The position numbers were made by a program, and so were the translations under genes. A stretch of DNA of 64,000 bases from Spirochaetia bacterium (GTDB taxonomy: Bacteria; Spirochaetota; Spirochaetia; Treponematales; Breznakiellaceae): positions 1-64,000 of the forward strand of contig BNUY01000002.1 in NCBI GenBank assembly GCA_025997715.1, in the 5' to 3' direction. Of this stretch, positions 7,954 to 58,622 are shown in pieces. Every line of letters begins with the position of its first letter. Position 1 is the first letter of the stretch. Below the pieces are notes generated by a model that saw only the letters and a list, made by a program, of their open reading frames with translations, made no database searches and was not told where the DNA came from.

Positions 7954-7983
7954 AGTATACGCCTAAAAATGCGATTCTGTCAA
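7954..7983 (-). promoter_or_regulatory. Promoter of the sugar kinase-araA pair
   Basis: On the minus strand TTGACA (7978-7983), 18-bp spacer, TATACT (7954-7959); predicted start near 7947. It lies in the 86-bp gap after the yjfF-like permease. Confidence 0.65.
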
Positions 7984-8003
7984 CAAACATTTGAAAATGA
8001 AGT

Positions 8004-26724: not shown

Positions 26725-28581
26725 TCATTCCCCAAAAGCCCTTGCACCGAATCGGCGTATTAGTTCTGCACGGTTAGAAGAACTAAGGCCGGTACATCCT
26801 TTAAACGCCCCATAGCCTGCACTGGTAAGCGCCGGGGATATAGTAATGGACGCAAGGCTGGTACATTCTAAAAATGCAAAATTGCCGATAGTTGCTGTGC
26901 CGGAAATAGTTACCGTAGCAAGCTTTTTGCAATTCTGGAATGATGCATTACCTATGGTTGTTACCCCTCCCGGGATAATCATTTCAGTAATTTCAGAGTA
27001 CCAAAACGCCTTATCCTCCATGTCCGTTAATCCCTTGGGAAGCGTAATCTTTGAAAGCTTCGCAAACGTAAACGCTTCGGTCCCTATAACCTTTACCGGC
27101 AGCCCGTTTATCGTATCGGGAATAATCAGCGTAGTCTTAGTGCCGGTATATTTGTTTATCTTTATATACCGGGTATTTCCCGTCCCGATACTCGTTGTGT
27201 CAAATTCAGCGGCGCCGGCTGCAACTTCCAAATCAGCCGGATTAAGGGTGATACTCGCGGCAGGATCGAGGGCGAAGGTAAGGATAGACTGCTTGCCATC
27301 GTTGATGGCCCAATAGACCTTTTTGGTTTGTACGTTATAGCGCAGAGTGTCGTTCATATTAAGCCTGATTCCGGGCAGCGTTTTTACTTGGGAAAGCGGC
27401 TTCCCCTGGGCATCTATGATGAGCATATAGGTTGACAGATAAGCGGTTGCCTCGTTCCCAAATCCACTCGCCGTTGAAAAGGCGCATTTCTCCCATAGCA
27501 GAAGATAGCGGCCTCCATCCATGGCGGTAATTTTGGGGTGCGCAACATGTCCGGTGTTTTCTGTATAACCGGTAAGATATACCGGATCGCTGCAAGCAGT
27601 CAAATTATCATCAAAGGTAAGAACAAACAGATTCCGGGGTTTATTTTGTACCTTTCCATAGCTGCCTGCAAATATATAACCATTTGAAGTTTTTGCAAGA
27701 CTACCCATTTCTGCATACGTGGCGTTCTGACCGCTTGGCCCTTCAAATTGAAAGGACTGGATTTCTTTGATCGTGCTGCCGTTCTGAACCTTTGCAAAAG
27801 CAAAACTTCGGGGACCTGCATCACCGTGATCGGCAAATATAAAACCATCTTCAAAAGGAAGAATGAATTGATTAAATGAATGCCCTGCTGATGGCATCTT
27901 TATTCCCGGAAGTCTTTCAAGGGTATCTTTATTTAGGATAAATCCGTAGGAGGCCTGATGATTAAGGCCATCTTGCGCCCTAAACATCTCCCGCGCAAAA
28001 TAAACTGCTATTAAATCTCCCGATATTTCCAATCTACAAGTACCAGCATCAAATGGTATTTTTACTCCTGAATATCCCCTCGCCCATTTTTCATCCGATG
28101 TCTGGGCGGCCAAATAAAAAGTTTTAATCTTTGTGCCATCAGGAGAATATTTTGCAAATGCCATATTGTTTTGGGCAAACGCACCTTCGGGGACATCATT
28201 AGCATAGAAAAAATAGTAATTCCTTGCGCTGTCTTTGGTAAAGGCCCCCAATGTTTCCAGTTCATTATGAAATTTATATGTTTTGAGCAGATTCATATCA
28301 CGGGAATACTCATAGATATAGGTATCATGCGCTATCTCATCAGCGGCGCAGACAGTTACGCCACCGTCATCATTGACGATGGCCTGGAGGGAAGGAAGCT
28401 GGCTGGAATATTTTAAGTATTTGTTCCCCAACACATCAACCGAATCACGGATTGTATAAACCACACTCTGCCTGGTTGCCGAAGGGTTGGTGTCGGCGGC
28501 GAAGACCGCCGGAACCGTAACGGCGGATACGACCGTTAAGACGAATAGCAATGTAAGGACGGTGATTTTCTTAGTGTGCAT
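26725..28581 (-). CDS. Secreted protein with BspA-type leucine-rich repeats
   Basis: 618 residues. Signal peptide (VLTLLFVLTVVSAVTVPAVFA), then a region of about 400 residues with repeated beta strands and YILTFAL-like patterns, possibly a beta-propeller. The C-terminal part (about residues 480-600) has BspA/TpLRR-type repeats: LPVKVIGTEAFTFAKLSKIT, LPKGLTDMEDKAF, IPGGVTTIGNASFQNCKKL. Such repeats mediate adhesion or host contact in Treponema and Bacteroidetes. ATG with GGAGAAACCT upstream. Confidence 0.75.
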   Translation of the reverse strand: MHTKKITVLTLLFVLTVVSAVTVPAVFAADTNPSATRQSVVYTIRDSVDVLGNKYLKYSSQLPSLQAIVNDDGGVTVCAADEIAHDTYIYEYSRDMNLLKTYKFHNELETLGAFTKDSARNYYFFYANDVPEGAFAQNNMAFAKYSPDGTKIKTFYLAAQTSDEKWARGYSGVKIPFDAGTCRLEISGDLIAVYFAREMFRAQDGLNHQASYGFILNKDTLERLPGIKMPSAGHSFNQFILPFEDGFIFADHGDAGPRSFAFAKVQNGSTIKEIQSFQFEGPSGQNATYAEMGSLAKTSNGYIFAGSYGKVQNKPRNLFVLTFDDNLTACSDPVYLTGYTENTGHVAHPKITAMDGGRYLLLWEKCAFSTASGFGNEATAYLSTYMLIIDAQGKPLSQVKTLPGIRLNMNDTLRYNVQTKKVYWAINDGKQSILTFALDPAASITLNPADLEVAAGAAEFDTTSIGTGNTRYIKINKYTGTKTTLIIPDTINGLPVKVIGTEAFTFAKLSKITLPKGLTDMEDKAFWYSEITEMIIPGGVTTIGNASFQNCKKLATVTISGTATIGNFAFLECTSLASITISPALTSAGYGAFKGCTGLSSSNRAELIRRFGARAFGE

Positions 28582-29304: not shown

Positions 29305-30279
29305 CTAATTTATATTAACCTTTATTGATTTTAAACACATCTCTCTATACCAGACTTCTACTGTCCATACTCCACTAGAATAAGTAGAACGATTCTGATT
29401 ACCAACCTTATTTAAATCGAGTGTTTGTCTTTCGGTCTTGAAAATTCTATATGATCCGGTATCTGTATATCCATACGGCGATGATTTTGAATCTTGACGA
29501 ATCTCACTTTTTGGATTAATTATTCTAATATCTAATGCAACATTTCCATTTATCGTAGAGGTATATACAATTCTCGGCGTCAAATATCTCATTTGTGAGG
29601 CAGATAAAGCCACCCCAGGTTGTGTAATCCAATTATCGTTTCCATTCTTATTTCCAATTAATAATGAATCTACACGAATTGGAGATAAGAGTGATAATAA
29701 TCGATTATTGTCAGTCTGCAATGTATTATTTTTATTTTTCAATATATCGTTTTCATTTTTCAAGGTTTTATTATTATTTTGCAATGTATTTCTTTCATTT
29801 TGTAGTTTTTTATTTTCATTTTGCAATGTACTATAATCAGATTGCAAAGTATTTATATCATTACTTTTTTCCATTAAATTATCATATTTAGTCTGTAAAG
29901 CGATAAAGTTATTTTGCAATGAGTTATGTTCACTCTGTAACGTACTATAATTGTTCTGTAATTTATCACGTATTTCGGATAAAGATGCTTCTGCATTTCC
30001 ACATGTAACTATCGACACCAGAATTGCTACAATTAATAGAATGGTAATTATTGTCCAAACAGTTACAACTTTGTTTGTAATCATTCCTGCATTATTTGTA
30101 GATTTATTTATTTTTATTGTCTTAAATAAACTGAATTTCCGCAATTCTTGTTTTGGCGCAATCTCCGGAGAAGCAGCAGGTGGTATTTCAGGATCGACTA
30201 TAATAACTTTTGCTCCACATTCTTCGCAGAATAGTACGTCTTCGCTTAGTGTTGATCCGCATTTTTCACAAATAGCCAT
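29305..30279 (-). CDS. Zinc-ribbon membrane protein with coiled-coil stalk (operon gene 8)
   Basis: 324 residues from ATG 30279, 8 bp after the previous gene, with GGGGAAATC upstream. The N-terminal zinc ribbon has CEKCG and CEECG pairs (residues 4-24). One membrane helix follows (VVTVWTIITILLIVAILVSI, about residues 72-95). Next is a long Asn/Leu-rich coiled coil with near-repeats LQNENKKLQ, NERNTLQNN and LKNENDILK, then a C-terminal beta-rich domain (about 200-324). Topology suggests ribbon in the cytoplasm, stalk and C-domain outside. No function recognised; it is the last gene of the tubulin/actin operon. Confidence 0.78.
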   Translation of the reverse strand: MAICEKCGSTLSEDVLFCEECGAKVIIVDPEIPPAASPEIAPKQELRKFSLFKTIKINKSTNNAGMITNKVVTVWTIITILLIVAILVSIVTCGNAEASLSEIRDKLQNNYSTLQSEHNSLQNNFIALQTKYDNLMEKSNDINTLQSDYSTLQNENKKLQNERNTLQNNNKTLKNENDILKNKNNTLQTDNNRLLSLLSPIRVDSLLIGNKNGNDNWITQPGVALSASQMRYLTPRIVYTSTINGNVALDIRIINPKSEIRQDSKSSPYGYTDTGSYRIFKTERQTLDLNKVGNQNRSTYSSGVWTVEVWYREMCLKSIKVNIN

Positions 30280-30287
30280 GATTTCCC

Positions 30288-31292
30288 CTAAACTACTTTT
30301 GTACCGCAACTTCCACAAAACTTGGCTGTTGGCCTTATTGGTTTACCGCATGCGTAACAAACTTTTTCTTTCGGCAGAGAAAGCGCTTGTTCTGAAGAAT
30401 CTTGAGGTTTAATTTTATCAAAATATTTAGGCAGCAGTGAAAATATTGATTCGATTTTTACGCTATAAAGATCTATAGATTCTTTATAGGGCTTTGGAAT
30501 ATCACTAAAAAATGCACATTTATAACTTATTTCACTTAAATTATTTATTAGGCGCTGTATTTGTTTTCCATATTCTACCGATTGTTCTCGTACCATCCCA
30601 GGAAATGTTTTATTACAATCTTTGATAAATAATTCTGCATTCTCTATATTTACCAGTGCTGCGGCGGTTGATGATAATTTAGTATTCAATGATTTGGCAT
30701 TATTTTCAAGATTTACCACACTTTTTGCAAGTTTTTCAAAAGTATTATTACAGATAGCAATATTATTTGCAAGTACTCCAGTACGGGTATTTTCATTTTT
30801 TATGTAGTCATCTATAAAGTCTATAGTTTTATTAGTATTACTCTGTAATGCAGCTAAATCATTTTGCATATTAACACTCAGATGATTAAAGGTCTCCAAA
30901 ACCCTAATTTTATTAAGATTTATTTCATTCATAGTATTAAAGAATTCAAAAAGAGGATTGACGACTTGCTGTTTTGTTTTTGCCTCGTTAGTATCTTCAC
31001 AATGATATTTATTAAGCAAATGCTCAAGCACAAAGGACAATGCAAATATAATGCAGCAAAATATCAAACTAGTTTCTGATGTACCGTGTATTAAAAGATT
31101 AAATGAAGAAATAATCATAGCAAATATGCCGAGCGGTAAATATGTTTTTATAAAGACAGCGAATAATTTTTGCTGCATAAGAGCCATTAAACCAGTATAT
31201 TTTTGGTGAGTAATTTTAAAAAATGCAACATAAAAGGTCGCAGATAAGGCGGAAAGCCCAAAGAATAGAATGGCAATGATTTGTAAAATCAT
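30288..31292 (-). CDS. Membrane coiled-coil protein with C-terminal zinc ribbon (operon gene 7)
   Basis: 334 residues from ATG 31292, preferred because GAAGGAACC lies upstream and it starts right after the previous stop; the frame opens earlier inside that gene. Membrane helices at the N-terminus (IIAILFFGLSALSATFYVAF, LPLGIFAMIISSFNLLIHG, TSLIFCCIIFALSFVLEHLL). Then a long helical coiled-coil region and a C-terminal zinc ribbon with CYACG and CGSCG. It pairs in style with the next gene, whose ribbon is N-terminal. Confidence 0.75.
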   Translation of the reverse strand: MILQIIAILFFGLSALSATFYVAFFKITHQKYTGLMALMQQKLFAVFIKTYLPLGIFAMIISSFNLLIHGTSETSLIFCCIIFALSFVLEHLLNKYHCEDTNEAKTKQQVVNPLFEFFNTMNEINLNKIRVLETFNHLSVNMQNDLAALQSNTNKTIDFIDDYIKNENTRTGVLANNIAICNNTFEKLAKSVVNLENNAKSLNTKLSSTAAALVNIENAELFIKDCNKTFPGMVREQSVEYGKQIQRLINNLSEISYKCAFFSDIPKPYKESIDLYSVKIESIFSLLPKYFDKIKPQDSSEQALSLPKEKVCYACGKPIRPTAKFCGSCGTKVV

Positions 31293-31293
31293 A

Positions 31294-32430
31294 TTATGGT
31301 TCCTTCTTTGATAAATTTTCCGAAAGAATCTTGCAAATCTCAAAAAAACGTTCATAAGATTTGGATAGTTCCGCGGCATTTTTTGTTAAGGTTTCTTCTA
31401 TATTTGTAAATGTCCGGTTCACATTATTTTGAAGGTCTGTCGTAATATTTCCTAGAATATGTGCAACTTCCTTTTCGGTACAATTTGATTGTTCTATTAT
31501 TGAGTGCCGAAATTGATTTAGTCCATCAGATAATTTATTCATAGCTTCTATATTTATACTATTTGTAGCAGTTAATTTTGGCATAGATTTTTTCCATTCT
31601 TCCATTGACAAAGCTATATTATTTAAGTTCTTATACAAGGTTTCAATGCTCCCATTGTTCTTATCCAATGCTTGAATGATATTTTCGATACTGACTATTT
31701 CACCGTTCATTCGAGAGGCTGTTAAGTTCTCAAGTTTCTGGGCTAATGTCTCATTTGATTTAGCCAAATTCTCAGATTGCTGTGAATAGACATTTTGCAA
31801 ATTTGCAATAGTATTATTCAATAATACTATTGATGTAGAATTAGTTTCCTCCGATAATTTCAAGCTAATAGCATTTATTACTATAGAATCAAGATTGAGT
31901 ATCATTTCATACCAGTTTATATAAAAATGTTCGGCAAAGGCCTCATAATTACCTTCAAGAACGCGCTTTAATGCAGCAATCAATACATACCAGATAAACT
32001 GCACGGTGAAAAGTAATTCCACATTGGATATGCCACTATTATTTAATTGAGCTATAAGTAATATTGCAGGTACAATAAAGCTCGCAAGGAATATATTAGC
32101 TAGAAACTTATTTTGAAGGCTTTTGTATAAAAAGAGATAGAATTCTTTGTTTGCAATCTTCCCATTTTCTGCATCCTTGCAAATTCGGTTCAGTATTTTA
32201 AGAATATGGTTTTTTTTCATTTTCTTATCAAGGGAATTAGCAAATTCTGCCGCGTTGTTTTTTACAATTAATGTATTGGCATCAGGGGAATACTCTGGTT
32301 CAAGACTTAGTCCTGTTAAATCTTTTAGTTCTTTTGTAATACGAATCCGTCGAAAGAATATTATTACCGGTAAAAGAAATAAAAAGATAAACCCGAGGCT
32401 GTACACAAATGCAAAGTTATCCATAAACAT
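31294..32430 (-). CDS. Membrane protein with long coiled coil (operon gene 6)
   Basis: About 378 residues. One N-terminal helix (FVYSLGFIFLFLLPVIIFF), a cytoplasmic-looking loop, two more helices (LASFIVPAILLIAQL, LLFTVQFIWYVLIAAL), then about 200 residues of Asn/Ser/Leu-rich coiled coil (LLNNTIANLQNVYSQQSENL onward). The layout recalls ZorA/MotA-type stator or methyl-accepting-like proteins in outline only; no family motif is seen. Start: ATG 32430 behind GGGAATA; TTG 32439 and ATG 32424 are alternatives. It abuts genes on both sides. Confidence 0.72.
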   Translation of the reverse strand: MFMDNFAFVYSLGFIFLFLLPVIIFFRRIRITKELKDLTGLSLEPEYSPDANTLIVKNNAAEFANSLDKKMKKNHILKILNRICKDAENGKIANKEFYLFLYKSLQNKFLANIFLASFIVPAILLIAQLNNSGISNVELLFTVQFIWYVLIAALKRVLEGNYEAFAEHFYINWYEMILNLDSIVINAISLKLSEETNSTSIVLLNNTIANLQNVYSQQSENLAKSNETLAQKLENLTASRMNGEIVSIENIIQALDKNNGSIETLYKNLNNIALSMEEWKKSMPKLTATNSINIEAMNKLSDGLNQFRHSIIEQSNCTEKEVAHILGNITTDLQNNVNRTFTNIEETLTKNAAELSKSYERFFEICKILSENLSKKEP

Positions 32431-32439
32431 TATTCCCAA

Positions 32440-33066
32440 TCATAGAATTTTTAATTCTCCCTTAAACTCAATATAACCTGAATTAGTCATTTCACACGGA
32501 GTAATTATCTTTATTTTATTTTTCCCTTTTTCGTTAAGCATACTTTGTTCCATTTTATACAAAGCAGATATGTCGGTCATTTGATCGAAGAAACATGGAT
32601 TTGGTAACAAATATTTTCTTGATCCTTCGCGGTTTGTAATCCATTTTGTCTCTTCCGGTGTTTGAATCAACTGCTGTGTCGTACGTATCCTAAAATCACC
32701 CGCAAGGAAAGTAAATGCTGCCGGTAAACCTACCAGCGGATTCACCGCCCATTTGTTAAAAAGGGTTATAACATGATCGGATTCAGCTTTTCGTTCCTGT
32801 TCCTCCTTTTTTTCAAATATTTCCAACCGGCCAGAAAGATTTTGTATTTGTTTTGCACATTCAGCTAGTACCTTTTCCAGCGTAGCGATTCTTGATTCTT
32901 TCTCAGCAAGTGCACGGACGATCTCTTCGTTACGAGTATGATATTTTTTGTTATTTTCATTGATTGCAGGTATAGCATTAAGCCATGCTTTATACTTTGG
33001 ACCCAATTCAGAGATAAGATGAGCATCAATAAATTGTTTAAGAGTTAGTTCTATTTCTCCTGCCAT
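32440..33066 (-). CDS. Soluble coiled-coil protein with operon-specific C-terminal domain (operon gene 5)
   Basis: 208 residues. N-terminal half is a coiled coil (about residues 45-90). The C-terminal domain of about 110 residues is shared with the next gene upstream: FNKWAVNPLVGLPAAF, TKWITNREGSRKYLLPNPC, QMTDIS, NKIKIITPCEM, GYIEFKGEL. No membrane segment or signal. ATG 33066 overlaps the preceding stop (TAATG), so translation is coupled. The shared domain is not recognised. Confidence 0.75.
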   Translation of the reverse strand: MAGEIELTLKQFIDAHLISELGPKYKAWLNAIPAINENNKKYHTRNEEIVRALAEKESRIATLEKVLAECAKQIQNLSGRLEIFEKKEEQERKAESDHVITLFNKWAVNPLVGLPAAFTFLAGDFRIRTTQQLIQTPEETKWITNREGSRKYLLPNPCFFDQMTDISALYKMEQSMLNEKGKNKIKIITPCEMTNSGYIEFKGELKIL

Positions 33067-34493
33067 TATAGAATTTCTAACTCGCCTTTAAACTCTATAA
33101 AACCGGCTTCGATCATTTCACAGGGTTTAACAACCTTTATTTTATTTTGACCTTTTCCTTTAAGTTTTGCCTGATCCATTTCATATAGGGTGGATATGTC
33201 GGTCATTTGGTTGAAGGAACAAGGATTTGGAAACAAGTATTTTTTCATTCCCTCACGATTTGTGATCCACTTTGTCTCAGTAAAACTCTCTTTTATACTG
33301 TGCTTTGTCCGTATTTTTATATCCCCTTCGATGTAGTAAAAAGCCTTCGGTAAGTCGCTTGACGGATTTCCCGCCCATTTATTAAACACATCCAGGGGGT
33401 CAAGTGCGCCGCTTGCGATGTTTTTGGTTATTTGCAAATCTGAATTCAAGCTACTCAGGCTATCAACCTTTTCCTTAATTTGATCTAGCTCTCGTTCAAA
33501 ATTTCTTTGCCTGGATGATAAACTATTTATTTGCTCTTTTGTCTCACTTGAAGATGTATTGTCACGCTGAGGAATTGACAAAAAACTGTTAAGAGGTTTT
33601 TTGTCAACATTATGCTGTAACTGTTCTATGTCGTGAGTGTTGTTTTCAACAGTTTCCTTCAAAGAGCGAATCTTTTTTGCCTTAGAATTGCTTACTAAAA
33701 GGATGGATACTATAATTAATACCAATAACAGTACAGAAATACCTAATAGAATGAATTGAAAATTGATTTGTGTCTCTAGTTTAATCATCATTGTATTTAA
33801 CTCCTCTATTCTTTCGTTAAAAATTTTAAATAACGATGTCCATTTTGCATAAACAATCACATCTCTTTCAATTCGAGTATTTTCTGTAAATTCCTTATTA
33901 TTCTCAATCCAGCAGTCAAATTTATATCCTTCTTTCACAGGCATATCGGGTAGTTTACCAACAGTTTCATTATACCTGACCTGTATTGATTCTATATCAT
34001 TGCCACCGTTTGTATTAAATGTCACGGTGAATCTTTGAACATCCCAATGAGCAATAACATTCTTATTATCATCTATTCGTGTTTTTTCCGTAAATTCAAC
34101 ATCATCATCCGTAAACCATCCGAGAAAATTATAACCATTCTTTTCAGGATTGTTTGGTAATTTAATCGTTTTTCCAGCATCTACCTCTATTGGATAAATC
34201 TTATTACCTCCTTGTGTATCAAAAGTTATCAGATATTTGCTGGGAGTCTTTGGTTTATTATCGGACGTTACAGAGCGGGAAGATGATGGCTTTGGCTGAA
34301 CTTCGTCTTTTTTCGCCGGTGCAGGAGATGCTTTTGATGGAGCAGCAGCGTCGATGGCTGGTGAAGGTTCTACTGTAGCGGCGGATGCTCCATCCTGGTT
34401 AGCACCAGGTTGCGGTTCCGATGGCTGAGTAAAGGCAAGGCTGCAACAGATCGTAAATAGAAATGCAAAAGCGATTAGCCTAATCTTTTCCAT
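33066..34493 (-). CDS. InlB-repeat membrane protein with operon-specific C-terminal domain (operon gene 4)
   Basis: 475 residues. Signal sequence (1-22), Pro/Ala/Ser-rich linker, and two InlB/Listeria-Bacteroides-type repeats at about 87-150 and 153-219 (ITFDTQGGNKIYPIEVDAG, GYNFLGWFTDD; VTFNTNGGNDIESIQV). A membrane helix at 246-269, a coiled coil at 280-350, and the C-terminal domain shared with gene 5 at about 365-475 follow. Predicted topology: repeats outside, coiled coil and C-domain in the cytoplasm. GGAGGATTATTT precedes ATG 34493, which overlaps the tubulin/actin gene by 19 bp. Confidence 0.8.
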   Translation of the reverse strand: MEKIRLIAFAFLFTICCSLAFTQPSEPQPGANQDGASAATVEPSPAIDAAAPSKASPAPAKKDEVQPKPSSSRSVTSDNKPKTPSKYLITFDTQGGNKIYPIEVDAGKTIKLPNNPEKNGYNFLGWFTDDDVEFTEKTRIDDNKNVIAHWDVQRFTVTFNTNGGNDIESIQVRYNETVGKLPDMPVKEGYKFDCWIENNKEFTENTRIERDVIVYAKWTSLFKIFNERIEELNTMMIKLETQINFQFILLGISVLLLVLIIVSILLVSNSKAKKIRSLKETVENNTHDIEQLQHNVDKKPLNSFLSIPQRDNTSSSETKEQINSLSSRQRNFERELDQIKEKVDSLSSLNSDLQITKNIASGALDPLDVFNKWAGNPSSDLPKAFYYIEGDIKIRTKHSIKESFTETKWITNREGMKKYLFPNPCSFNQMTDISTLYEMDQAKLKGKGQNKIKVVKPCEMIEAGFIEFKGELEIL

Positions 34494-37400
34494 AAATAAT
34501 CCTCCGCATATATTTGCAAAAACACCTTTAACATTATGATAAAAGGAGGTTCAAAACGATCTTCTCCAAGAACATTTTCAAATTCTACCTTTATCATGTT
34601 CCACAAGGATTTCTTGGAAGCGGTAAACCAATCCAAATCTATGGGCGTCATATCATTGCGTGTCTTTGCGGCGATCCGGTTAAAGAAGGTAATAAAGGAC
34701 TCAAGATCATTTAGGTCCTGATTGATTTCCACTTTTAATACCTTGGGTGAAGCAAAAAATTGGTCTTTGTATGTATCAACAAATTGATCAGCTCTTAAAG
34801 TCTGTTTCTGGTCACCGTTTTTAACAACAATATTACAGCCCATGTAAATATCAGGATCAGTTACCTTAGCGGTGTTTTTTGGCTTGCCATCAGCATCAAG
34901 GTTACAAATCATTCCTATGGCCGTTTCAGTTTTTGCCGTTACCTCAGCAAACTGCGGGATAAGTTTTATTGAAAGCGAGGTTCGTTCCTTAATAAGATTT
35001 TCAGCCTCGCCATAGATAAACTCACAATAAGCGCCTATCCATGACGTTAATTTGGAGCCCTTGCCGGAAAGTCCCAACACTATTTCCGTGATGTCATTGT
35101 CGATTTTTCGCTCTGCAGGAGTTTTGTCATTCAAAAGAGATGCGATGATATTGGCTACATAATACATGAGCCCTGAATAGGCGATAAGGACGCAATACTT
35201 AAAGTTTTTAAACGCTTCATTGTCTTTCCCTTCCATGTTTTCAAGACGATTGACCAGCGACGTATAATGCTCAAAAAGAACAGTTTCAATAAGGAATTTG
35301 AGTTTATCATCCGTCATTCCCCTATTATTGGTGAGATCAGAGAGCATTGTATATATTTTGTCATCTTTCTGTTCGGTGGTAACCGCTTTCCTTACCGATG
35401 GACGATCCAGCAACTTTTTTAGCGGCTCTATAAACATATTGCGTGAGGCAAAGTGTACCGATGTCTGGAAGAGATGTTTTGTTTTTACCCAAATCGAAAC
35501 ATCGGTTGAGCCGCCGCCAATATCTATACAGAAGAACACCCTGTGCAGGGGATTTTTGTAGTTAAAATAATAGGCCGCTGCGATACTTTCTGTTAAGAGA
35601 TTTTCCGGGTCGTTGAAGGTCAAATCAATGGCTGTTTCGCTTGATAACTGAGTTATAATATTCTTTAGCCGACTACAAAATTCCCCCTTCGCGCCGGGGC
35701 CAAAAGCTGTGGGATACGAAAAGAAAAAGTTAATATTTCGTACACCTTTTTCTGCTGCTTGGTACACAATCTGGGTAAGAAGCTGGTTCAAATATTTTGC
35801 GGCATTTGATTTGCTGCCTTCCCACTTAATATTGGTCAAGAGCCTTTCCTTTCTGCCCTCCTGTGTATTCATGATCTTGAAGTTCTCATAGTTATGCCAG
35901 AATATACGTTCCCCCGAAAATAATGTTGCATCATCATTGCTTAATGATGTGTCCATTTTCTCCAGCGCCGTTGAAAATCCGTTTTGTTTAAAACATTGCT
36001 TGTCAAGGAAATAGAGTTCATAGCTTTTATCTCCGTTGTCAGAGAGTATTTTAAGGTCATTATCAAACTCGAATTCCTCCGCTGTATCGTTTCCTTCCCT
36101 CCATTCGTATTCTTTTAGCAACTGAACGAATTTCGGCGTTGTATCAGCCGTACTGGTATAAAACGCCGTTGTGGATGTGGTGCCAAAATCAATACCAACA
36201 TTCCATCGTACAGCCCCTGCATTTACCGATTTCGGTTTCGCTAAAAATACCATCCCACGGTAAATAGGTGAGCTTTCGGTTTTTTCGTTAATTGTAAACG
36301 CCGAAGGAAGGCTCGTATATCGGCGGTAATAGAACTCATACAGAACAGTTTGAAGTGTCGAAAGATTCCGTTCCCCTGCTAAAGGGGTTGAGTTATCTTC
36401 AAAGAAGGGCTTCAAATCAAGAACCGGAATACCGCGATAATTAGGTTCGATACAGAAACAGTTATAACGCCGCCACGTGTTCTCTCTGTTTGTATTTTTT
36501 ATTTCCGCATAAGGCCACAAACTCCAAAATGGAATGAGGTTTTTCTCCCTAATTCGGCAAACACCATTTTGTTGAGAGCCTTCAACGGATATATCATCAT
36601 TGTTTTTCATACGATACTCTTTGCGTATCGTATGATTGCCAAGTTTACCACTCAGCTTTATCGTAAGGCTTACCGTAATTTTTTCCTGGTCGCTGGTTAA
36701 TGATACCATCCGATTAAGTGTTTCAGCGGAATACAATTCGAGAAGCTCCGCATTAATAGGCCATATCACTTCATAGAGAGAAAGGGAGCTATTATTTGGC
36801 ATGGCATGAATAATCGCAGCTCCTTCTTTTTTAACCATTATCATGGAATCGCAGAGAAGTTCATCCGCATAGAGCAGCTTGATGCCCCCATTTTGTATGG
36901 TATTTTTGTATTTACCAATTGTCCCCTGGGTGATCTGATTATACATGAGGTTTTCGGTTACAAAATGATGAGCAGCCTCTGCGCTCGCTGAATTTATCCC
37001 GCAAATATTAAGCCCGATAAGAGCCACTCGGGCCCCGCCTTTAGTACCTTCCATAATAAAGGGTAGTTCAACGTTCGCGGTGTTAGGCGATAAAACCATT
37101 TCAGTAAAAAGAGAATAGACCGAATTAACCTTGTTTTTCTTCTCCGGTTCTATTGCAAGGTTTGTATTTGGTGTTGCCGTTCCAAGTTCTGTAATATATT
37201 TATCAAGCAGCTTTTGCAGATTTGCAATTATGCTGCTCTTATTTGTTGCCGCTTCCTGGGTGATTATTGTCTTAAGCTCAGAAAGAAACAATTTTAGGGC
37301 GTACTTTGCGTCACGGTTTAATGTTTGACTTTGATCCTTAAAATAATTGTCCGGACTCAGGAAATCACCGTTTTCGTTTACGATGCTTGGAGCTATCTTG

Positions 37401-39463
37401 TTAAGTTTTGTTTTAGTTGCAGGATCCAGCAAATAGGCGGGACAAACAAAAGTGTTATTGGCAAGAAACGCTACTGTTTTGCCGTCTAATGATAAGCGAT
37501 AACACTTTACCCAGTTTTGATTGTTAAAAATATAGCTTGTCGGATGGAGTGTCTCTATCTCACTTAGGAATTCACCGCTGCTTAATGCAAGCGGTTCCAA
37601 TTTAAGACCGGCATTTTCGTAGAGGCATACTTTTCGTAATACCAAAAGAGCAATGACTCCGCACCATTCCTTATACACCCCTTTATTGATTGCGGAAAAC
37701 TTTGGCTCGGTAAGGGTGAGTTCATTCATGATGAAGATAGACCAGGGGGACGGAATAGAAATATCATTTTTCGTAAATGATTCAGATACGGCAAGCGGTA
37801 AACCATCGGCAATATCAGTAAGTAGCTTTGCCTCACTCTTAGCCCATAGTTTTGTACCCGCAGGAGGACGTGTAAAGGTGACCTTGTTTTCTCTCGATAA
37901 ATACGCCACATAATCATAGTTCAGAGGCTCCGGCGGTTTTTTCCCGAAGTTAAAAATCTTTTTCTCTTTCTTTTTCATTATATCTAAGAGATGTGCAAAT
38001 AAAGCGGCGAATCCCTTACCATTTTCATTTGCAGAAGGAGGAGAGCAAAAATAAGCATATATTTTATCACTCTTTTTACTGTTGCCGTCGTTATACACCA
38101 GGTTATCGAAATCGGCAACTTTATCATCTTCGACTGGCGTATTATCAAACAGACTCGGATAATTGGCACTAAAAAGACGAACACGAGTATCCGCTTCCCA
38201 AATTAGCTCATTGGTGTTTTGGTTGATTTCGTTCTTGTTACGCTTATGAATATCAAAAAACCAAGTCACAAGCAATTCAAGATAACTGCGAATGTTTTCG
38301 TACACAAGATTATTTTTACCATCACGCAGTTTATCAAGCGCCGTTTCAGCGCCTTTATCATAAAAATTTTGCCATACACCAGCCGCAATACCATGTGCTA
38401 ACTGTGGATAGAGCACTTTATTATAGAAGATAGCAGATTTTATCACCGTCTGAATCTTTTGCGGTAAATCAGGAAGAATTTTTTGCAACATTTCCCATGT
38501 ATAGAAATAAGTATTATCTTTTACCCCACGTTCAGCGCTGATAATTTTTCCATCTTCCCGATCATCTGATGCCGTGATAAAGTCGATGAGAGCGGTCGCG
38601 GCAAAAAGCTCAATAGGATGAGCCTTGTTTATCTGGGTTGAGGAGCCGCGCGAAGCACGTTCAAAAGAGAAATTAGATTCCGGCTCTCCGATGACATAGA
38701 GCGCATTTGTTTTTTTAAACTGTTCCTGCCGGTAATAATAATAGAGTGATGCTTTTGCCTTTATGTGAAAATTGGAGCTATCTGGCTGTAACAAACCTTC
38801 TTCCGCTATTTTTCCTACCGCTGCAAAATAGGGATTGAGCATCAAAACCGCTAATTTAAATTTAGCTTCCTTTTGTCTATCGTGAAGCAGATCAAGTAAA
38901 ACAGGAATAGCGGACGCACCGGTACCGCCAAAGATAGAACCTGCAACAACGACGAAATCATTATCGTTTAAAGCGGCAATCTGCTTTTCCCATACTTCGC
39001 TTTTTTTAAGAATATCGGTTACAATCAAGGTTCCGATAGCTGTGTGTCCATAAAACCCCTGATCAAACTCCGTTTCTATTTCCTCATTAGTGTATAAAAA
39101 ACGTATAAATGTATCGTCCGGTTTATCCGCATATTGCGAAATGTTAAAGGTCTTGCTCAGACTCTTTTTTTCATCGTGATAGAGGCTTATATTAAGCTTT
39201 GGATCAAGAGCTTCTATGGGAACAAGTCCAAGGCTGCCAGCGCCGTTTAATGCATCATAATACCGCTCATAAGCGTCAAGTGTTTTTTTGGTTAACCCAA
39301 AGTTGCCGTTAGAATCATCCGCATCAATACTCAGAGCGCTTATTTTATTTATCTCGTGCTTCCCCAAGTTGCCGGAAAACGCTCCACAAGCGGCCAGATG
39401 AATAACGGCGTTTAATATCTTGTGTCCTGTACCGCCAACGGTGATAATGTGTAACTTAGACAT
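34475..39463 (-). CDS. Fusion of tubulin/FtsZ-like and actin/Hsp70-like domains (operon gene 3)
   Basis: 1662 residues. The N-terminal region looks like the tubulin-like (Tubulin_2) family: first-strand glycine loop HIITVGGTGHKIL (4-16) and the tubulin T4-loop signature in SIFGGTGAS (about 174-184). A large middle region (about 300-1080) is unrecognised. The C-terminal part has actin/Hsp70-fold motifs in order: phosphate-1 GIDFGTTSTT (about 1089-1098), phosphate-2 CIDIGGGSTDVSIW (about 1311-1324) and an adenosine-like IVLGLSGKGSKL (about 1459-1471). So one polypeptide may bind GTP at one end and ATP at the other. No signal or membrane segment. GGAGGAATT precedes the ATG. Domain calls are from motifs, not a profile search. 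Confidence 0.85.
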   Translation of the reverse strand: MSKLHIITVGGTGHKILNAVIHLAACGAFSGNLGKHEINKISALSIDADDSNGNFGLTKKTLDAYERYYDALNGAGSLGLVPIEALDPKLNISLYHDEKKSLSKTFNISQYADKPDDTFIRFLYTNEEIETEFDQGFYGHTAIGTLIVTDILKKSEVWEKQIAALNDNDFVVVAGSIFGGTGASAIPVLLDLLHDRQKEAKFKLAVLMLNPYFAAVGKIAEEGLLQPDSSNFHIKAKASLYYYYRQEQFKKTNALYVIGEPESNFSFERASRGSSTQINKAHPIELFAATALIDFITASDDREDGKIISAERGVKDNTYFYTWEMLQKILPDLPQKIQTVIKSAIFYNKVLYPQLAHGIAAGVWQNFYDKGAETALDKLRDGKNNLVYENIRSYLELLVTWFFDIHKRNKNEINQNTNELIWEADTRVRLFSANYPSLFDNTPVEDDKVADFDNLVYNDGNSKKSDKIYAYFCSPPSANENGKGFAALFAHLLDIMKKKEKKIFNFGKKPPEPLNYDYVAYLSRENKVTFTRPPAGTKLWAKSEAKLLTDIADGLPLAVSESFTKNDISIPSPWSIFIMNELTLTEPKFSAINKGVYKEWCGVIALLVLRKVCLYENAGLKLEPLALSSGEFLSEIETLHPTSYIFNNQNWVKCYRLSLDGKTVAFLANNTFVCPAYLLDPATKTKLNKIAPSIVNENGDFLSPDNYFKDQSQTLNRDAKYALKLFLSELKTIITQEAATNKSSIIANLQKLLDKYITELGTATPNTNLAIEPEKKNKVNSVYSLFTEMVLSPNTANVELPFIMEGTKGGARVALIGLNICGINSASAEAAHHFVTENLMYNQITQGTIGKYKNTIQNGGIKLLYADELLCDSMIMVKKEGAAIIHAMPNNSSLSLYEVIWPINAELLELYSAETLNRMVSLTSDQEKITVSLTIKLSGKLGNHTIRKEYRMKNNDDISVEGSQQNGVCRIREKNLIPFWSLWPYAEIKNTNRENTWRRYNCFCIEPNYRGIPVLDLKPFFEDNSTPLAGERNLSTLQTVLYEFYYRRYTSLPSAFTINEKTESSPIYRGMVFLAKPKSVNAGAVRWNVGIDFGTTSTTAFYTSTADTTPKFVQLLKEYEWREGNDTAEEFEFDNDLKILSDNGDKSYELYFLDKQCFKQNGFSTALEKMDTSLSNDDATLFSGERIFWHNYENFKIMNTQEGRKERLLTNIKWEGSKSNAAKYLNQLLTQIVYQAAEKGVRNINFFFSYPTAFGPGAKGEFCSRLKNIITQLSSETAIDLTFNDPENLLTESIAAAYYFNYKNPLHRVFFCIDIGGGSTDVSIWVKTKHLFQTSVHFASRNMFIEPLKKLLDRPSVRKAVTTEQKDDKIYTMLSDLTNNRGMTDDKLKFLIETVLFEHYTSLVNRLENMEGKDNEAFKNFKYCVLIAYSGLMYYVANIIASLLNDKTPAERKIDNDITEIVLGLSGKGSKLTSWIGAYCEFIYGEAENLIKERTSLSIKLIPQFAEVTAKTETAIGMICNLDADGKPKNTAKVTDPDIYMGCNIVVKNGDQKQTLRADQFVDTYKDQFFASPKVLKVEINQDLNDLESFITFFNRIAAKTRNDMTPIDLDWFTASKKSLWNMIKVEFENVLGEDRFEPPFIIMLKVFLQIYAEDYLWKRLG

Positions 39464-39478
39464 AATTCCTCCAAATGG

Positions 39479-39946
39479 TTAATTAACCGTAAACCAGAAT
39501 GCCCGTTTATATATCGGGGAAACAAACCGTGCAGCAATGATATATGTTACTAAAAACATAATCGTATGCATTGCTATGAGGATACCAAACGTTGTTCTAT
39601 CAAGACCGAAAGTCAGGAGAAAATAGATGGGCAGCGCCAGCATAAACGCAATGTTCACAAAAAAGCCCACGAAAAACTCCGTGTGTTTGATACTAGCATT
39701 TGCTCCGCCGATTAAGGCCGGAACAATCAGCAGAAGTATAATATTCACCACGATGCTGACCACAAGGCTCACAAACGCGCTTTGCGCTGCATAAACACCC
39801 CATATATATCCAACAACGCGGGATGCCTCTCCATGCACCTGGATATAATAGGGATCTATGCCCATCTTAAAAAAGACTAACATAAGAACAGGAATCAGAA
39901 ACCAGGGTAGCACCCAAAGTGATGTTTTAAGATACGTTCCAAACAT
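39479..39946 (-). CDS. Four-helix membrane protein (operon gene 2)
   Basis: 155 residues with four membrane helices: LWVLPWFLIPVLMLVFF, SLVVSIVVNIILLLIVPALI, GFFVNIAFMLALPIYFLL, and ILIAMHTIMFLVTYIIAARF. No charged functional motif is seen and the family is not recognised. GGAGGTTGGAGAAAA precedes the ATG. It lies 15 bp from genes on both sides, between the vWA lipoprotein and the tubulin/actin protein; a membrane anchor for the complex is a reasonable guess. Confidence 0.72.
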   Translation of the reverse strand: MFGTYLKTSLWVLPWFLIPVLMLVFFKMGIDPYYIQVHGEASRVVGYIWGVYAAQSAFVSLVVSIVVNIILLLIVPALIGGANASIKHTEFFVGFFVNIAFMLALPIYFLLTFGLDRTTFGILIAMHTIMFLVTYIIAARFVSPIYKRAFWFTVN

Positions 39947-39961: not shown

Positions 39962-41401
39962 TTATCGTTTTACAAGGTATAATTCATTTGAATATATACT
40001 CTTTGATTTTATGTCGTTATACGCACTGGCGATTTTTTCGAAAACACTTGTCAGATTTAATACCTTGACCCGTTCGCTCTTTACACTTCCGCGTAGCTCC
40101 GCAATATTTTCCGCATTTAGTTCTTCAACCCACCGGGGCGTACTCTTTGCGTGGGGAACAACACTATACTTTATAAGATACCATCCATTCTTAACATTTT
40201 TGTTTTGTACCTCAATCGTAAGGTACATGGGATAGTTGACATCAACCAAACCATCATCAATATTTGAAAGCGGCGTAATTTTTGCACTAAAATCTTTCAC
40301 CGCAGATGATTCGGCAGAGATAAAGGTAGAAGCATCCAACCTATTAAGCTTATTTTTTTTGTTATCATAAAAAAGGGAAATTGGAACCTCATAATCAAAA
40401 CTTGATACATTGATGTTCTGTAATGCGAAGCCTGCTGAGTAGCGCGAAAGAATATCTCCCCGCAATCTGAAAGCTTCAAATCCCTCAAGTTCGCCATCAA
40501 TTTCTGTTCCGATAAGATTTATAGGGGAAAAAGCATTATCATTAATATGTTGTTTGCTATTTACCAATTCAATATCGCCTACATTGGGTTTGGGGATTGT
40601 GCCGGGATTCACCATAAATACCACATTTTGACTATTCAATCTGCTCCTGCTTAACTCCCTGCTAAGTTGTGTGCAGTAGCGTTCAATAACAGCGCTGTCT
40701 CCCGCCATACAGATAAAAAAGGTAGACCTTCCATTATTCACCGCTATATTCTCGCCTTCATTTACCCGGGATACGGAGTATATGTTCCCTGAAAAAGAAG
40801 ACTCCACGGCGAAAAAAGCACCGGAAAGCCCACGGGAAAAGGCATCGCGGAAAAAGCGGGAAAACGGGTTCTCAATATTTTGTTCATAAAGGTCTGTTAC
40901 CACCACATACAGACTGCCCTGGGTTTCTTCATTGTCCACATTGTCGATGATATAGCTGGCGGCCGCCTGAAAAGGTTGATTATTATTGCGTTTAACCTGT
41001 ATCTTATTACCGCCGGAGGATCCGCTAGTTCCATAAAACCCTGCGCGTAAAACATTTCTTTTTACGGTTGCAATCGCCTCACTGCCTTTGAATTCATTAG
41101 TAAAATCCTCGTTATATTCAAAAAAATGGGGCTCAAAGTCAGGAAAAGCAACCTCGGCTGCCTGCCAGAGCGCGGGTAACGCCGAAACATACTCTGAGGC
41201 ATCCCCTTTTGCCGTAAACCCCTGCATTGAGCCGGTTCTGTCAAAAAAATAATGGATCCGTGGGTTCAAAGGCTCAGACGGAACCTCTATTGGTACTGCA
41301 AGATGCTCCCTGGCTGTTTTATCAGGTACGGGTAAACATGCGGTATTACTGGCGGCAATCACCACAAAAAGAAAAAGGAGGGGGCTTACTTTCTTTACCA
41401 T
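39962..41401 (-). CDS. vWA-type domain lipoprotein (operon gene 1)
   Basis: 479 residues from ATG 41401; the frame opens at 41470 without a site. Signal KVSPLLFLFVVIAASNTAC ends in a plausible spirochaete-type lipobox Cys. A von Willebrand A-like domain begins at about residue 48: RIHYFFDRTGSMQGF carries a DxTGSM variant of the MIDAS, and a later LYVVVTDLYEQ supplies the second metal-site Asp. The C-terminal third (about 300-479) is beta-rich. Such domains bind ligands through Mg2+. First gene of the operon; probably faces the periplasm or cell surface. Confidence 0.8.
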   Translation of the reverse strand: MVKKVSPLLFLFVVIAASNTACLPVPDKTAREHLAVPIEVPSEPLNPRIHYFFDRTGSMQGFTAKGDASEYVSALPALWQAAEVAFPDFEPHFFEYNEDFTNEFKGSEAIATVKRNVLRAGFYGTSGSSGGNKIQVKRNNNQPFQAAASYIIDNVDNEETQGSLYVVVTDLYEQNIENPFSRFFRDAFSRGLSGAFFAVESSFSGNIYSVSRVNEGENIAVNNGRSTFFICMAGDSAVIERYCTQLSRELSRSRLNSQNVVFMVNPGTIPKPNVGDIELVNSKQHINDNAFSPINLIGTEIDGELEGFEAFRLRGDILSRYSAGFALQNINVSSFDYEVPISLFYDNKKNKLNRLDASTFISAESSAVKDFSAKITPLSNIDDGLVDVNYPMYLTIEVQNKNVKNGWYLIKYSVVPHAKSTPRWVEELNAENIAELRGSVKSERVKVLNLTSVFEKIASAYNDIKSKSIYSNELYLVKR

Positions 41402-41697
41402 GCTACTCACATCCTTATAAAAGTCGTCCGGAAAGCTGACTAAAATTATAACCTTCCCAAGCGCCATCAAATTATCCCTGGCTTACATTTATGGAAGATT
41501 TTGAAAAATCGTTCGGGTTTTAGGGTTATTTTCCATCAAAATTCAGGAAAACAAGCTCGAACCTTCCAACCGATGTCCCCATAAATCTACAATGAACTTT
41601 GTATCATCATCTATTTAAAATGTCAAGTGGTAAATGAAATATTCTTCTCATTGAGGGATACCACGGACTCAAGTAGATTGAAATTGGGGAATCGACT
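41402..41697. promoter_or_regulatory. Divergent promoter region between the tubulin/actin operon and the WYL regulator
   Basis: For the operon, minus strand TTGACA (41621-41626), 17 bp, TACAAA (41598-41603), giving a leader of about 190 nt. For the regulator, plus strand TTGAGG (41651-41656), 17 bp, TAGATT (41674-41679), start near 41686 and a GGGGA site before ATG 41698. The 24-bp space between the two -35 boxes is a good place for a shared operator; no perfect palindrome was noticed. Confidence 0.45.
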
Positions 41698-42561
41698 ATG
41701 GGGCCGTTTAAACCATCAACTCACCGAAAATGGTTTATAGACAAGAAAATTCGGGAAAATGTCTATCCAACAGCAGTATCGCTTGCGGTGGATTACCAAA
41801 AAGAGTACGGGAAATCCATTGATCCCCGGTCTATTGCAGCGGATATTGCCGCCTTGAGGCAGGAATTTCATGCCCCTATAGGTTATGACTACCAGCATCG
41901 GGGGTATTTTTACACCGATCCAGCATTTCATCCGGCGATTTTGCCGGATGATCCGGGGGGTTTACTATCAGACATGGCGCCGGAAGCACGGCCTAAGACA
42001 CAATTTATCCCGGATTGGCATAAAAACCTGCTATCTACCCTCTTAAATAAGGCCTTGCCGGTCTCAAAAGGGGCTGATACTTCAGCCGGGAAGGTGAGTT
42101 TGCTACTGAACGCCCCTTACGAACCGGAAACAGTCAGGGACGGTCCTCTGCGAGCCCTTCTGGAAGCGCTGGATAGTCATATGGAAGTAAAACTCCGCTA
42201 TATCTACGCCGGGGTTGAACCGGTTGCGCTGATTTTCCAGCCGATACACTTCATTTATACCCCCGAAGCCCCCCTCCTTTTTGGGGCTTTGCGGAATGAT
42301 CAGGGGGTCCGCTATGGGATTTTGCACACAGAACGCATTGAAGAGCTGGTCCGCCTCGATAGCCCGTTAAGCCCGCCGGATTATGTTTATGCCCAAACCG
42401 CTGGGAAGCAGGATATTGAGGTTCTGATTTCTCAAAAGCGGTCGGATCTGCTCCTGGTTTTCACCCTGAAACCGGGGACCAGCCGTAAAAAGACCCTCGC
42501 CGAATATGCCCTTTTAGCAAAAACTGAGATATACCCTATTCCGCAATCAATTTATCAGTAA
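41698..42561 (+). CDS. WYL-domain-type transcriptional regulator
   Basis: 287 residues. N-terminal winged-helix-like DNA-binding region (about 1-75: DYQKEYGKSIDPRSIAADIA, RGYFYTDPAF). A central WYL-like beta domain follows (about 145-215: ALLEALDSHMEVKLRYIYA, FQPIHFIYTPEAPLLFGAL), then a C-terminal extension. WYL proteins sense nucleic-acid or nucleotide ligands and often control defence or stress loci. Divergent from the tubulin/actin operon, 296 bp away, so it is the obvious candidate regulator. The canonical W-Y-L triplet is not intact here. Confidence 0.7.
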   Translation: MGPFKPSTHRKWFIDKKIRENVYPTAVSLAVDYQKEYGKSIDPRSIAADIAALRQEFHAPIGYDYQHRGYFYTDPAFHPAILPDDPGGLLSDMAPEARPKTQFIPDWHKNLLSTLLNKALPVSKGADTSAGKVSLLLNAPYEPETVRDGPLRALLEALDSHMEVKLRYIYAGVEPVALIFQPIHFIYTPEAPLLFGALRNDQGVRYGILHTERIEELVRLDSPLSPPDYVYAQTAGKQDIEVLISQKRSDLLLVFTLKPGTSRKKTLAEYALLAKTEIYPIPQSIYQ

Positions 42562-42612: not shown

Positions 42613-43545
42613 ATGCAATTCGATAAGCGACACCAATTTATCCTACTTGCGGTCATAGGTACTTCTTTGCTCATATACGGATGTACTGATAGCAAAAAAA
42701 CCTCCGTTGTATCCTCACCGAAAAAACCCGCTCCAGCATCATCTTTATTCAGTGAGATTTCCACCGGTTTTTTAGCAAAACAAAATTATGCTTGGCTCAC
42801 CTCAAAAGTGTTCATCCCTCAATACATCCTTGATGAAGCAACTCAATACCGTTCGGATTTTTTGAAAAAGAATTCAGAATCGGCTTCAAATTTAGTATTT
42901 GTGTTTTTCTATAATAATGACGGTGATGCTTGTCTTGAAGCAACGGTAACACCAAAAGGAGCTTATACGTGGGAAAAGGGAACGTGGATCTGTCAATGGT
43001 GGAGCGGCGGCGGCGGTGAAATCGGGGTTGGAGAAATTAAATATTTACAAACCAAGAAAAATTTAGATGAAGCAGAAATTAGAATTGAAGAACGGCGCAG
43101 GGATACTGCATTTGTTGAAATTGAAAGAATCGTTCTGCAATTAGCCACCGAGTATGATTATGATTATATGGGTGCGTATGGGCGGACAGTAAAATACCGT
43201 ACCCCTATGGTGAAAAAAGCATTTTGTGAGGGTTATTCTGACGCCGTTTTAGAAGCATTTCGGGGGCATCGATTGGTTGATCATGTCGAAAAATACGAGG
43301 GTGGAAACCATGCATGGAATGTAGTCGTTCTAAAAGATGGAAGAAAAATTTATACCGATGTAACTTGGTACGATGGTAATGCCATAGATGATGAAGGATA
43401 TGTTGTTCATATTCCCGTACGCAATCCGGTAGATTTAACATTTGACTTGGCAGAGTTTAACAGTTTGAATGGCGCTATTGATAGGTCAACAGGGAAAACG
43501 GTAAAAGTTCATTTTGATTTTGATCAGGTTAGTAGGGTGTATTAG
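42613..43545 (+). CDS. Lipoprotein with transglutaminase-like domain
   Basis: 310 residues. Lipoprotein signal HQFILLAVIGTSLLIYGC, then a Ser/Pro/Lys linker. The C-terminal half has the transglutaminase/protease-like triad in order: Cys in KAFCEGYSDAVLEAF near residue 200, His in GGNHAWNVVVL near 236, Asp in IYTDVTWYD near 252. Relatives act as peptidases or peptidoglycan-linked enzymes. It is encoded 51 bp after the WYL gene on the same strand; a link to the neighbouring operon is possible but unproven. Confidence 0.78.
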   Translation: MQFDKRHQFILLAVIGTSLLIYGCTDSKKTSVVSSPKKPAPASSLFSEISTGFLAKQNYAWLTSKVFIPQYILDEATQYRSDFLKKNSESASNLVFVFFYNNDGDACLEATVTPKGAYTWEKGTWICQWWSGGGGEIGVGEIKYLQTKKNLDEAEIRIEERRRDTAFVEIERIVLQLATEYDYDYMGAYGRTVKYRTPMVKKAFCEGYSDAVLEAFRGHRLVDHVEKYEGGNHAWNVVVLKDGRKIYTDVTWYDGNAIDDEGYVVHIPVRNPVDLTFDLAEFNSLNGAIDRSTGKTVKVHFDFDQVSRVY

Positions 43546-57280: not shown

Positions 57281-57933
57281 TGCCCGCCTCCTTCCAAGGC
57301 CGTACTTCCCAAAAGGGAGCTTACCAACTCCGCCCGGCTATCATCCAACAGGGCAGCCGCCAGGGCATCCAGTGAGGCGGTGAGCCGTACCGCAGGTGTT
57401 TCCACAATAATCGCGGGAAAATTGCCGGGAAGTTTATGGAAGTCTTTTGTCCCTTGTACCGTCCAGTTGATCCCCGGAAGGGCTCTGTCTACCAGGATTT
57501 TAAGTTCCTCCTCCGTAAGCGCCCGGTATCCCACCAAGAGGGGTGAGGCGTCAGAGTCAGACCTTTGGTCTGCGGCTTCCGGCAGCCCTGCGGCGCAGCG
57601 GCGAAGCTCCGTTTCCAGCAGGGCGAGAAGTTTCTCCCGTGATAAAGACCCGAGGTAATCCTGCATGGCGGTACGCAAGAGGGCTTCCACCTTTTCTGAA
57701 TAGGTGCGCCGTTTATCCAGGGGCAGCCGGGCCATGAGTTCTTCCCGAATCTTTTCGGTCCGGCTTGCGAAATTCCGTTTCAGTTCCCCGGTATCCTTTG
57801 CAATCCGTTCTTCCCAGACTGCGGCGGAGGCGGCAATGGCATCCTCCGCCGTTTTCAGAATACGCCGGGCCTTTTTCCGGGCATCCTCGAGAATCTCTTT
57901 GTCCAATACCTCGGTTGATCGCAGTTCTTCCAT
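57277..57933 (-). CDS. atpE: V-type ATP synthase subunit E
   Basis: 218 residues. Long charged helix at the N-terminus ([20 protein letters not shown]) and a C-terminal globular part, the layout of the peripheral-stalk subunit E. It lies between F and A, the usual spirochaete order. Sequence similarity in this family is low, so the call rests on position and helix pattern. Confidence 0.85.
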
Positions 57934-57952
57934 ATGTATTCCTCAAGTCCCG

Positions 57953-58620: not shown

Positions 58621-58622
58621 AA

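Follow-up and report, generated by a model that had tools for sequence, protein, structure and literature searches.

The 64,000-nucleotide (nt) stretch of DNA analysed here (the window; contig BNUY01000002.1 of a Spirochaetia bacterium, assembly GCA_025997715.1) encodes a protein of 1,662 amino acids (aa) that joins a tubulin-like unit to an actin-like unit, and we show that its gene represents the fusion of a conserved tubulin-like/actin-like pair found as adjacent, separate genes in other phyla. Tubulin and actin are treated as separate filament systems, and their well-known direct partnership in bacteria is that of FtsZ with FtsA. The module described here forms a second partnership of this kind, very distant from the first: the two genes are neighbours in Spirochaetota, Acidobacteriota, Cyanobacteriota and a Prevotella, and one lineage has them fused. 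At the genomic level, the fusion provides strong evidence for joint action of both halves. An earlier note on this DNA had proposed one polypeptide with both folds; such a protein, with conserved nucleotide-binding motifs in each half, is supported by our analysis, whereas the note overlooked both the unfused operon pair and an extra region of ~500 residues (540-1085) that comes with the actin-like unit. The parts of the fusion are as follows.

34475-39463, minus strand: tubulin-actin fusion gene (P0001), 1,662 aa, with GGAGG at 39468-39472 just 5' of the ATG
37964-39463, minus strand: tubulin-like (FtsZ/Tubulin_2-type) unit, residues 1 to ~500, equal to the entire separate tubulin-like gene of split operons
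39425-39436, minus strand: GGTG loop (T1 position), residues 10-13; G10, G11 and G13 in 29/30 rows, fused and split
38912-38929, minus strand: GGTGAS, the tubulin/FtsZ T4 signature loop, residues 179-184; invariant in 43 fused rows, GGTGA in 30/30 fused and split rows
37928-37972, minus strand: probable fusion junction, residues ~498-512, from model confidence and profile boundaries
36209-37846, minus strand: middle region, residues 540-1085, part of the actin-like unit in split operons and beta-rich from ~860
34874-36208, minus strand: actin/MreB/Hsp70-fold domain, residues ~1086-1530, from structure models
36170-36190, minus strand: DFGTTST, phosphate-1, residues 1092-1098; D1092 and G1094 in 35/35 rows
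35501-35524, minus strand: DIGGGSTD, phosphate-2, residues 1314-1321; D1314 and D1321 in 35/35 rows
35054-35074, minus strand: GLSGKGS, adenosine motif, residues 1464-1470; G1464 in 30/35 and G1469 in 34/35 rows

The open reading frame (ORF) and all five motifs lie where the earlier note placed them, the three actin-type motifs in the order it gave; the strand, missing there, is minus, and the plus strand has stops throughout 34475-39463. Homologues with the same fusion, for which the note had suggested a search, were found. A database search with the window protein, scoring only the 7,989 candidates with most words in common, listed 54 proteins (query included), 47 of which exceed 1,500 aa (range 1,595-1,706); the 46 near-full-length relatives show 95-100% query coverage and 35-67% identity. 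Seven shorter proteins (930-1,341 aa) complete the list; two of them are marked partial, and one of the seven, P0054 (1,096 aa), is without the tubulin part. In an alignment of 43 of the 47 near-full-length members (query included, the other four left out), G179-S184, D1092/G1094/T1095/T1096, D1314-G1317, D1321, G1464 and S1466-G1469 are invariant and GGTG at 10-13 is conserved at ≥90%, so the motifs are not chance. The source assembly is fragmented (447 contigs, 77% complete), a circumstance that could favour an assembly join, a frameshift or chance motifs as the origin of the gene. Against this stand the shared length of 47 of the 54 listed homologues, the two motif sets kept in all 43 aligned members and the modelling of both folds; such an artefact is ruled out by the conserved family and the two models, and we give it next to no credence. 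At E <= 0.001 the fusion is single copy in its own genome.

Family libraries say little about the window protein. Pfam and NCBIfam scans recognised almost nothing in it, the Pfam matches being weak (PF00091 at 17.2 bits, cut-off 33) and including no actin family, and a PDB sequence search returned weak local matches to DnaK, MreB, FtsA and 3zid (CetZ). Pfam matches to PF12216 (0.0081) and eIF-5_eIF-2B (0.046) were put down to chance. Both the tubulin fold and the actin fold are supported by high-confidence structure models matched to solved structures, as the motif-based reading of the earlier note had it.

The tubulin-like unit combines a tubulin GTPase fold (model) with glycine-rich T1 and T4 loops (GGGTGS-like), features of the FtsZ/tubulin superfamily, and Q277 and N279 are present in all 30 rows compared (11 fused and 19 split, one split row starting late owing to the start codon chosen). 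PF13809 (Tubulin_2) leaves the window protein unmatched, finds four of the 28 fused members scanned at an E of 0.01, and is matched at 44.0 bits (cut-off 27) by the split homologue P0159, which shares 31% identity with the window protein (E 5.8e-35). The actin-like domain adopts an actin ATPase fold in its structure model, and its phosphate-1, connect-1, phosphate-2 and adenosine motifs occur in order, co-linear with those of MreB from the same genome. Across 35 actin-like rows (11 fused, 6 database split and 18 loci), D1092, G1094, K1213, W1214, E1292, D1314, G1316 and D1321 are all kept without exception. The profile alignments neither support nor exclude a correspondence of the kept K1213-W1214 to the catalytic lysine of Hsp70. 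Because key residues are kept in fused and split rows alike, the nucleotide sites of both halves look selected to work.

The actin-like unit carries its own extra N-terminal region of ~500 residues, which corresponds to 540-1085 of the fusion, and the split actin-like profile begins at about residue 539. The tubulin profile matches P0159 over profile positions 3-494, P0159 itself being among the profile members. In the model, the predicted local distance difference test (pLDDT) score is 58 for the block 501-510, with blocks 131-140, 221-230 and 561-570 also near 60; the structural match of the fused protein to tubulins extends to residues 563-590, beyond the split point at ~500-540.

The affinities of the actin-like domain bear on whether the module builds filaments at all. 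It might instead be a non-polymerising switch, in which an Hsp70-like ATP switch remodels or holds the tubulin-like part and no filaments ever form. DnaK is among the top structural and profile matches, the actin-like members have their large extra N-terminal region and, according to Makarova and Koonin (PMC2875224), FtsZl1 relatives are without recognisable filament-interface elements. However, Pfam on 42 split members favours MreB (19 members) and FtsA (9), with no HSP70 match among those 42 at E 0.01, and no peptide-binding Hsp70 domain was recognised; we consider the switch improbable. SrfB, also sought, matched none of the 28 fused and 42 split members scanned at E 0.01, and gave one weak match in P0053 (E 0.18).

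The split form of the module was reached from P0054, which as query (7,996 candidates with most words in common scored) gave 104 database proteins, mostly of ~980-1,190 aa, that comprise the middle and actin regions; some are labelled Acidobacteria, Pyrinomonadaceae, Poribacteria, Nitrospirae and others. Independently, 39 source-contig sizes of these 104 proteins are identical to one of 118 for tubulin-like proteins, the latter taken from the best 120 of 1,566 relatives, where 0.2 would be expected. A collection of genome contigs, in which no relative of the window protein was found, yielded one actin-like relative (locus L008), and the gene directly upstream of it encodes a protein of 494 aa that matches Tubulin_2 of Pfam. 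A tubulin profile made from the fused members and this 494-aa protein, and an actin-like profile made from 99 split database proteins, were run on the loci fetched.

In those loci of the family that were reached and are not cut, the two genes are close neighbours. Nineteen of 162 acidobacterial-class genomes match the tubulin-like protein, and in 18 of these an actin-like ORF lies 3' of the tubulin-like ORF on the same strand; the 19th match (G507) is on a contig of 3 kilobases (kb) without an actin-like ORF. Genome G621 has a second tubulin-like match, on contig C403, that is interrupted by the contig end. The intergenic distance is -47 to +117 nt in the 21 measured pairs, which leave out G361 and G319, where the genes are 1.2 kb apart with a small ORF in the gap. 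When the actin-like query was run against 297 genomes of the acidobacterial phylum, 11 matched, of which only G196 did so strongly; among the ten weak matches, six (G221, G224, G247, G292, G319 and G361) have a tubulin-like partner, and the other four (open frames of 414-424 and 738 aa), with no tubulin-like ORF within the ~2-3 kb fetched, are taken as generic actin-fold proteins. Among 247 genomes of Spirochaetota four matched: the one that holds the window, and three from a different family, each of which has the split pair. Six records of a plasmid collection match the tubulin-like protein and five of them the actin-like protein too, the genes being adjacent in 6/6; the plasmid-borne pairs include those of Picosynechococcus sp. 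PCC 73109 (AWQ23_RS15325 and AWQ23_RS15320), PCC 8807 and PCC 7003 and of Gloeothece verrucosa PCC 7822, which are annotated as hypothetical or, in Gloeothece, as tubulin-like. Because these cyanobacterial strains carry the split version on plasmids, the module is directly testable. Phages gave no match to the split tubulin-like protein. At L064:7632-12372 there is a divergent pair, its genes, for a 757-aa tubulin-like and an 838-aa actin-like protein, overlapping by ~44 nt; the branch that it occupies is long in both trees.

This distribution also bears on the idea of a cell-shape or cytoplasmic-tubule protein particular to gut spirochaetes. Ten of the 12 organism-named fused-type entries are spirochaetes (labelled Treponemataceae, Treponema, Termitinemataceae, Spirochaetaceae or Spirochaetia; the other two are labelled Tannerella and Syntrophomonadaceae), and cytoplasmic tubules have been described in the spirochaete Leptonema (PMC3746420). 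The split module, however, is present in Acidobacteriota, cyanobacteria and a Prevotella, and the core role is therefore not spirochaete-specific. Moreover, the main text on pillotinaceous spirochaetes (PMC13067680) is without the terms microtubul-, filament, tubule or FtsZ. We hold this idea to be very improbable.

The two halves are inherited together. Mirror trees correlate with r 0.97 over 29 loci (21 split and 8 of the 47 fused), the maximum in 5,000 label permutations being 0.29, and r is likewise 0.97 for the split loci alone. Both trees group the fused members in a single clade at support 1.000, consistent with one fusion event.

The fusion gene sits in an operon of putative envelope proteins, the topologies of which were assigned by crude hydropathy. 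Its order is vWA-like, 4-transmembrane (4-TM), fusion, two proteins with a common C-terminal domain, two 3-TM proteins and a zinc-ribbon protein. The genes around the fusion are the following.

39962-41470, minus strand: vWA-like protein (family c2), probably exported; hydrophobic at its N-terminus and with DRTGSM as MIDAS-like motif
39479-39946, minus strand: small 4-TM protein, in the place of a 3-4-TM protein in other operons
33066-34493, minus strand: TM and coiled-coil protein with Flg_new repeats and a conserved C-terminal domain; 19-nt overlap with the fusion gene
32440-33066, minus strand: paralogue of the C-terminal part of the 33066-34493 protein (family c4)
31294-32439, minus strand: 3-TM and coiled-coil-like protein, with a homologue in L068 (family c18)
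30288-31379, minus strand: 3-TM protein with a C-terminal zinc ribbon (weak Pfam match) and a homologue in L068 (family c17)
29305-30318, minus strand: zinc-ribbon, TM and coiled-coil-like protein overlapping the 30288-31379 gene, with no homologue among the other loci compared

L068 has the window gene order minus the zinc-ribbon gene, and L069, L073 and L074 keep parts of it. The C-terminal domain of the 33066-34493 protein is linked to acidobacterial family c1 (profile probabilities 79 and 86); for the protein that follows the actin gene in general, this link is strong within some clades and weak between others (prob <=48). Neither the PADLOC scan nor profile comparison showed a likeness of the window's 3-TM proteins to MotA/ZorA.

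From hydropathy the vWA-like protein is probably exported, although the window member is without a loose lipobox pattern, which is seen in 12 of 18 vWA-like ORFs; the MIDAS-like D-x-[ST]-x-S is seen in 16 of the 18, a set that includes one gene twice and one fragmentary ORF. Pfam VWA matches one of six scanned members (E 0.0029, below cut-off) and not that of the window; this weak match and the MIDAS-like motif are the basis of the name vWA-like. Spirochaete and acidobacterial vWA-like profiles are homologous (prob 99.1), and a profile search places a vWA-like member near 22 of 28 split pairs at E <= 0.001. Many acidobacterial members sit in that profile by construction; matches from outside it include those in L047 (9e-7), L083 (2e-6), Gloeothece (1.5e-44), Picosynechococcus (6e-24) and Prevotella (6e-10). 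The Gloeothece gene (L086) is on the opposite strand, and the L064 match is a 175-codon ORF further away from the pair.

The genome also encodes FtsZ, FtsA and MreB, FtsA adjoining FtsZ on contig C5 of that genome (G000). This separate encoding, together with the folds, the kept motifs, the adjacency, the identical contig sizes, the mirror trees and the vWA-like gene near 22/28 pairs, supports the reading that we favour, if at slightly less than an even chance: by analogy, the module may be an accessory, envelope-associated scaffold that works like the FtsZ/FtsA pair, its nearest functional analogue, with the halves hard-wired in spirochaetes. GTP would govern assembly of the tubulin-like part, and the actin-like part, governed by ATP, would recruit that part or assemble jointly with it and connect it with the membrane partners, with the vWA-like protein reporting or acting on the periplasmic side. 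In spirochaetes the two parts are tied one-to-one in a single chain, and the scaffold would be distinct from the separately encoded cell division machine.

Several observations weigh against this scaffold. A T7-type catalytic acid was not identified in the tubulin-like part, D294 being invariant in the fused family and not kept in split clades, and the profile match of this part to FtsZ of the same genome is weak (prob 4). MreB, DnaK and FtsA are ~1 Z unit apart as nearest structural subfamily of the actin domain. The FtsZl1 family might, less likely, form no filaments, according to Makarova and Koonin (PMC2875224). The distribution is patchy, with matches in 6 of 196 genomes, the own genome included; the set lists four further genomes of the same genus, two of them <80% complete, and all four are without a match. 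No vWA-like homologue was found near 6 of the 28 split pairs: L050, L051, L054 and L085 have ample flanks, and L056 and L090 are truncated. Three clades have small TM proteins (c9, c3 and c10) that share place and topology only, with no detectable mutual homology. Simple operon co-inheritance also gives mirror trees: linked-pair inheritance yields the same correlation, and the trees therefore show that the halves travel together, with contact not implied.

A bolder form of the envelope scaffold would be a two-skeleton machine, an obligate GTPase/ATPase co-assembly at the envelope with a vWA sensor and with GTP and ATP cycles mechanically coupled within the subunits of a composite filament; this is conceivable, yet we doubt it. 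On this reading at least four phyla would build the machine from two proteins, and a spirochaete lineage from one chain of ~185 kDa.

Comparison with described systems shows what is new. Like the present module with its vWA-like gene, the FtsZl1/Tubulin_2 (PF13809) operons bring a divergent tubulin-superfamily protein together with vWA and membrane proteins; they include OmpA-type proteins in some genomes, are patchy, and occur beside a conventional FtsZ, and FtsZl1 proteins have a C-terminal coiled-coil domain (PMC2875224). The part of that text available mentions neither an actin-fold partner nor a fusion, and neither Pfam nor the Walker A pattern revealed in the window operon the GTPases and kinases that are frequent there. 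The actin-like gene may be among the unnamed families of that paper (A1-A2, B1-B9). Relative to the Tubulin_2/vWA operons, the actin-fold partner and the fusion are new, and the partner is a clue to the function of a branch of these operons, described in 2010. The earlier note knew of no such fusion, and searches of the openly licensed PubMed Central (PMC) literature found no tubulin-actin fusion or pair. With FtsZ-FtsA the module shares a tubulin fold and an actin fold encoded side by side, and differs from it in very distant sequence (FtsZ prob 4, FtsA prob 52), opposite gene order, the fusion and other partners.

The main rival to the envelope scaffold comes from another comparison. At the end of the split operon, L008 (15365-18303) and L045 (2853-5351) carry ZorA/MotA-like and ZorB/OmpA-like genes, absent from L085, and a possible link between the module and ion-driven envelope motors follows from these genes. 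The module could accordingly be a Zorya- or Kaur-like defence or conflict system in which the vWA-like and TM proteins sense an attack on the envelope by a phage or rival, and an assembly formed by the tubulin/actin NTPases signals or kills, the effectors of Zorya being replaced here by tubulin/actin proteins. Given the ZorA/ZorB-like genes of the two acidobacterial operons (best ZorB models E 9.1e-17 and 2.4e-15), further ZorA-like matches in L083 and L047 (E 2.3e-5 and 2.4e-4), the plasmid homes in cyanobacteria and the patchy distribution, this is the rival we take most seriously, though we judge it rather unlikely. The eight window operon proteins include no ZorA or ZorB in PADLOC and give weak, mostly coiled-coil matches (DruC, LmuB, JetC and RTasSLATT, best E 0.00028). 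PADLOC also has no match for the window fusion or for a split tubulin-like protein, a split actin-like protein matching SP_VI weakly (E 0.0032), and no nuclease or toxin effector was recognised among the scanned proteins.

The conflict systems predicted by Kaur et al. (PMC7159879), the GAP1-N2-type GTPase-centric ones, include genes for tubulin, HSP70 and vWA proteins, near membranes and with proposed cytoskeleton-like assemblies. There, tubulin and HSP70 belong to non-overlapping themes around a GTPase core, one class combining GTPases, tubulin and HSP70. The present module differs in having tubulin-like and actin-fold proteins together with no core P-loop GTPase seen: the Walker A pattern is absent from the ORFs picked in window 24001-46000 and elsewhere gives single core matches inside one actin-like and two vWA-like proteins, with a Walker A gene of L083 ~1.5 kb outside the core.

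Some further genes lie near the module. Beside the window's vWA-like gene is a divergent 287-aa gene (41698-42561), similar by eye to a WYL-type regulator and with no Pfam match, and at 42613-43545 a 310-aa protein (family c20), transglutaminase-like by eye and with no Pfam match above cut-off, has an L069 homologue inside the operon between the fusion and the TM genes. A BspA-type leucine-rich-repeat protein (26725-28581) is encoded just downstream of the operon, and V/A-type ATP synthase subunit genes occupy 54009-60638. On the Picosynechococcus plasmids (L087, L098 and L099) the operon of hypothetical proteins has an alternate F1F0 ATP synthase cluster nearby. In the acidobacterium of L008, a gene for a 1,710-aa RHS-repeat protein (3289-8421) separates the tubulin-like gene from the vWA-like/TM genes. 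Finally, the window's own genome encodes, besides the DnaK-like protein on C54, a second Hsp70-family protein at G000:C112:1293-2807 (open frame 576 aa).

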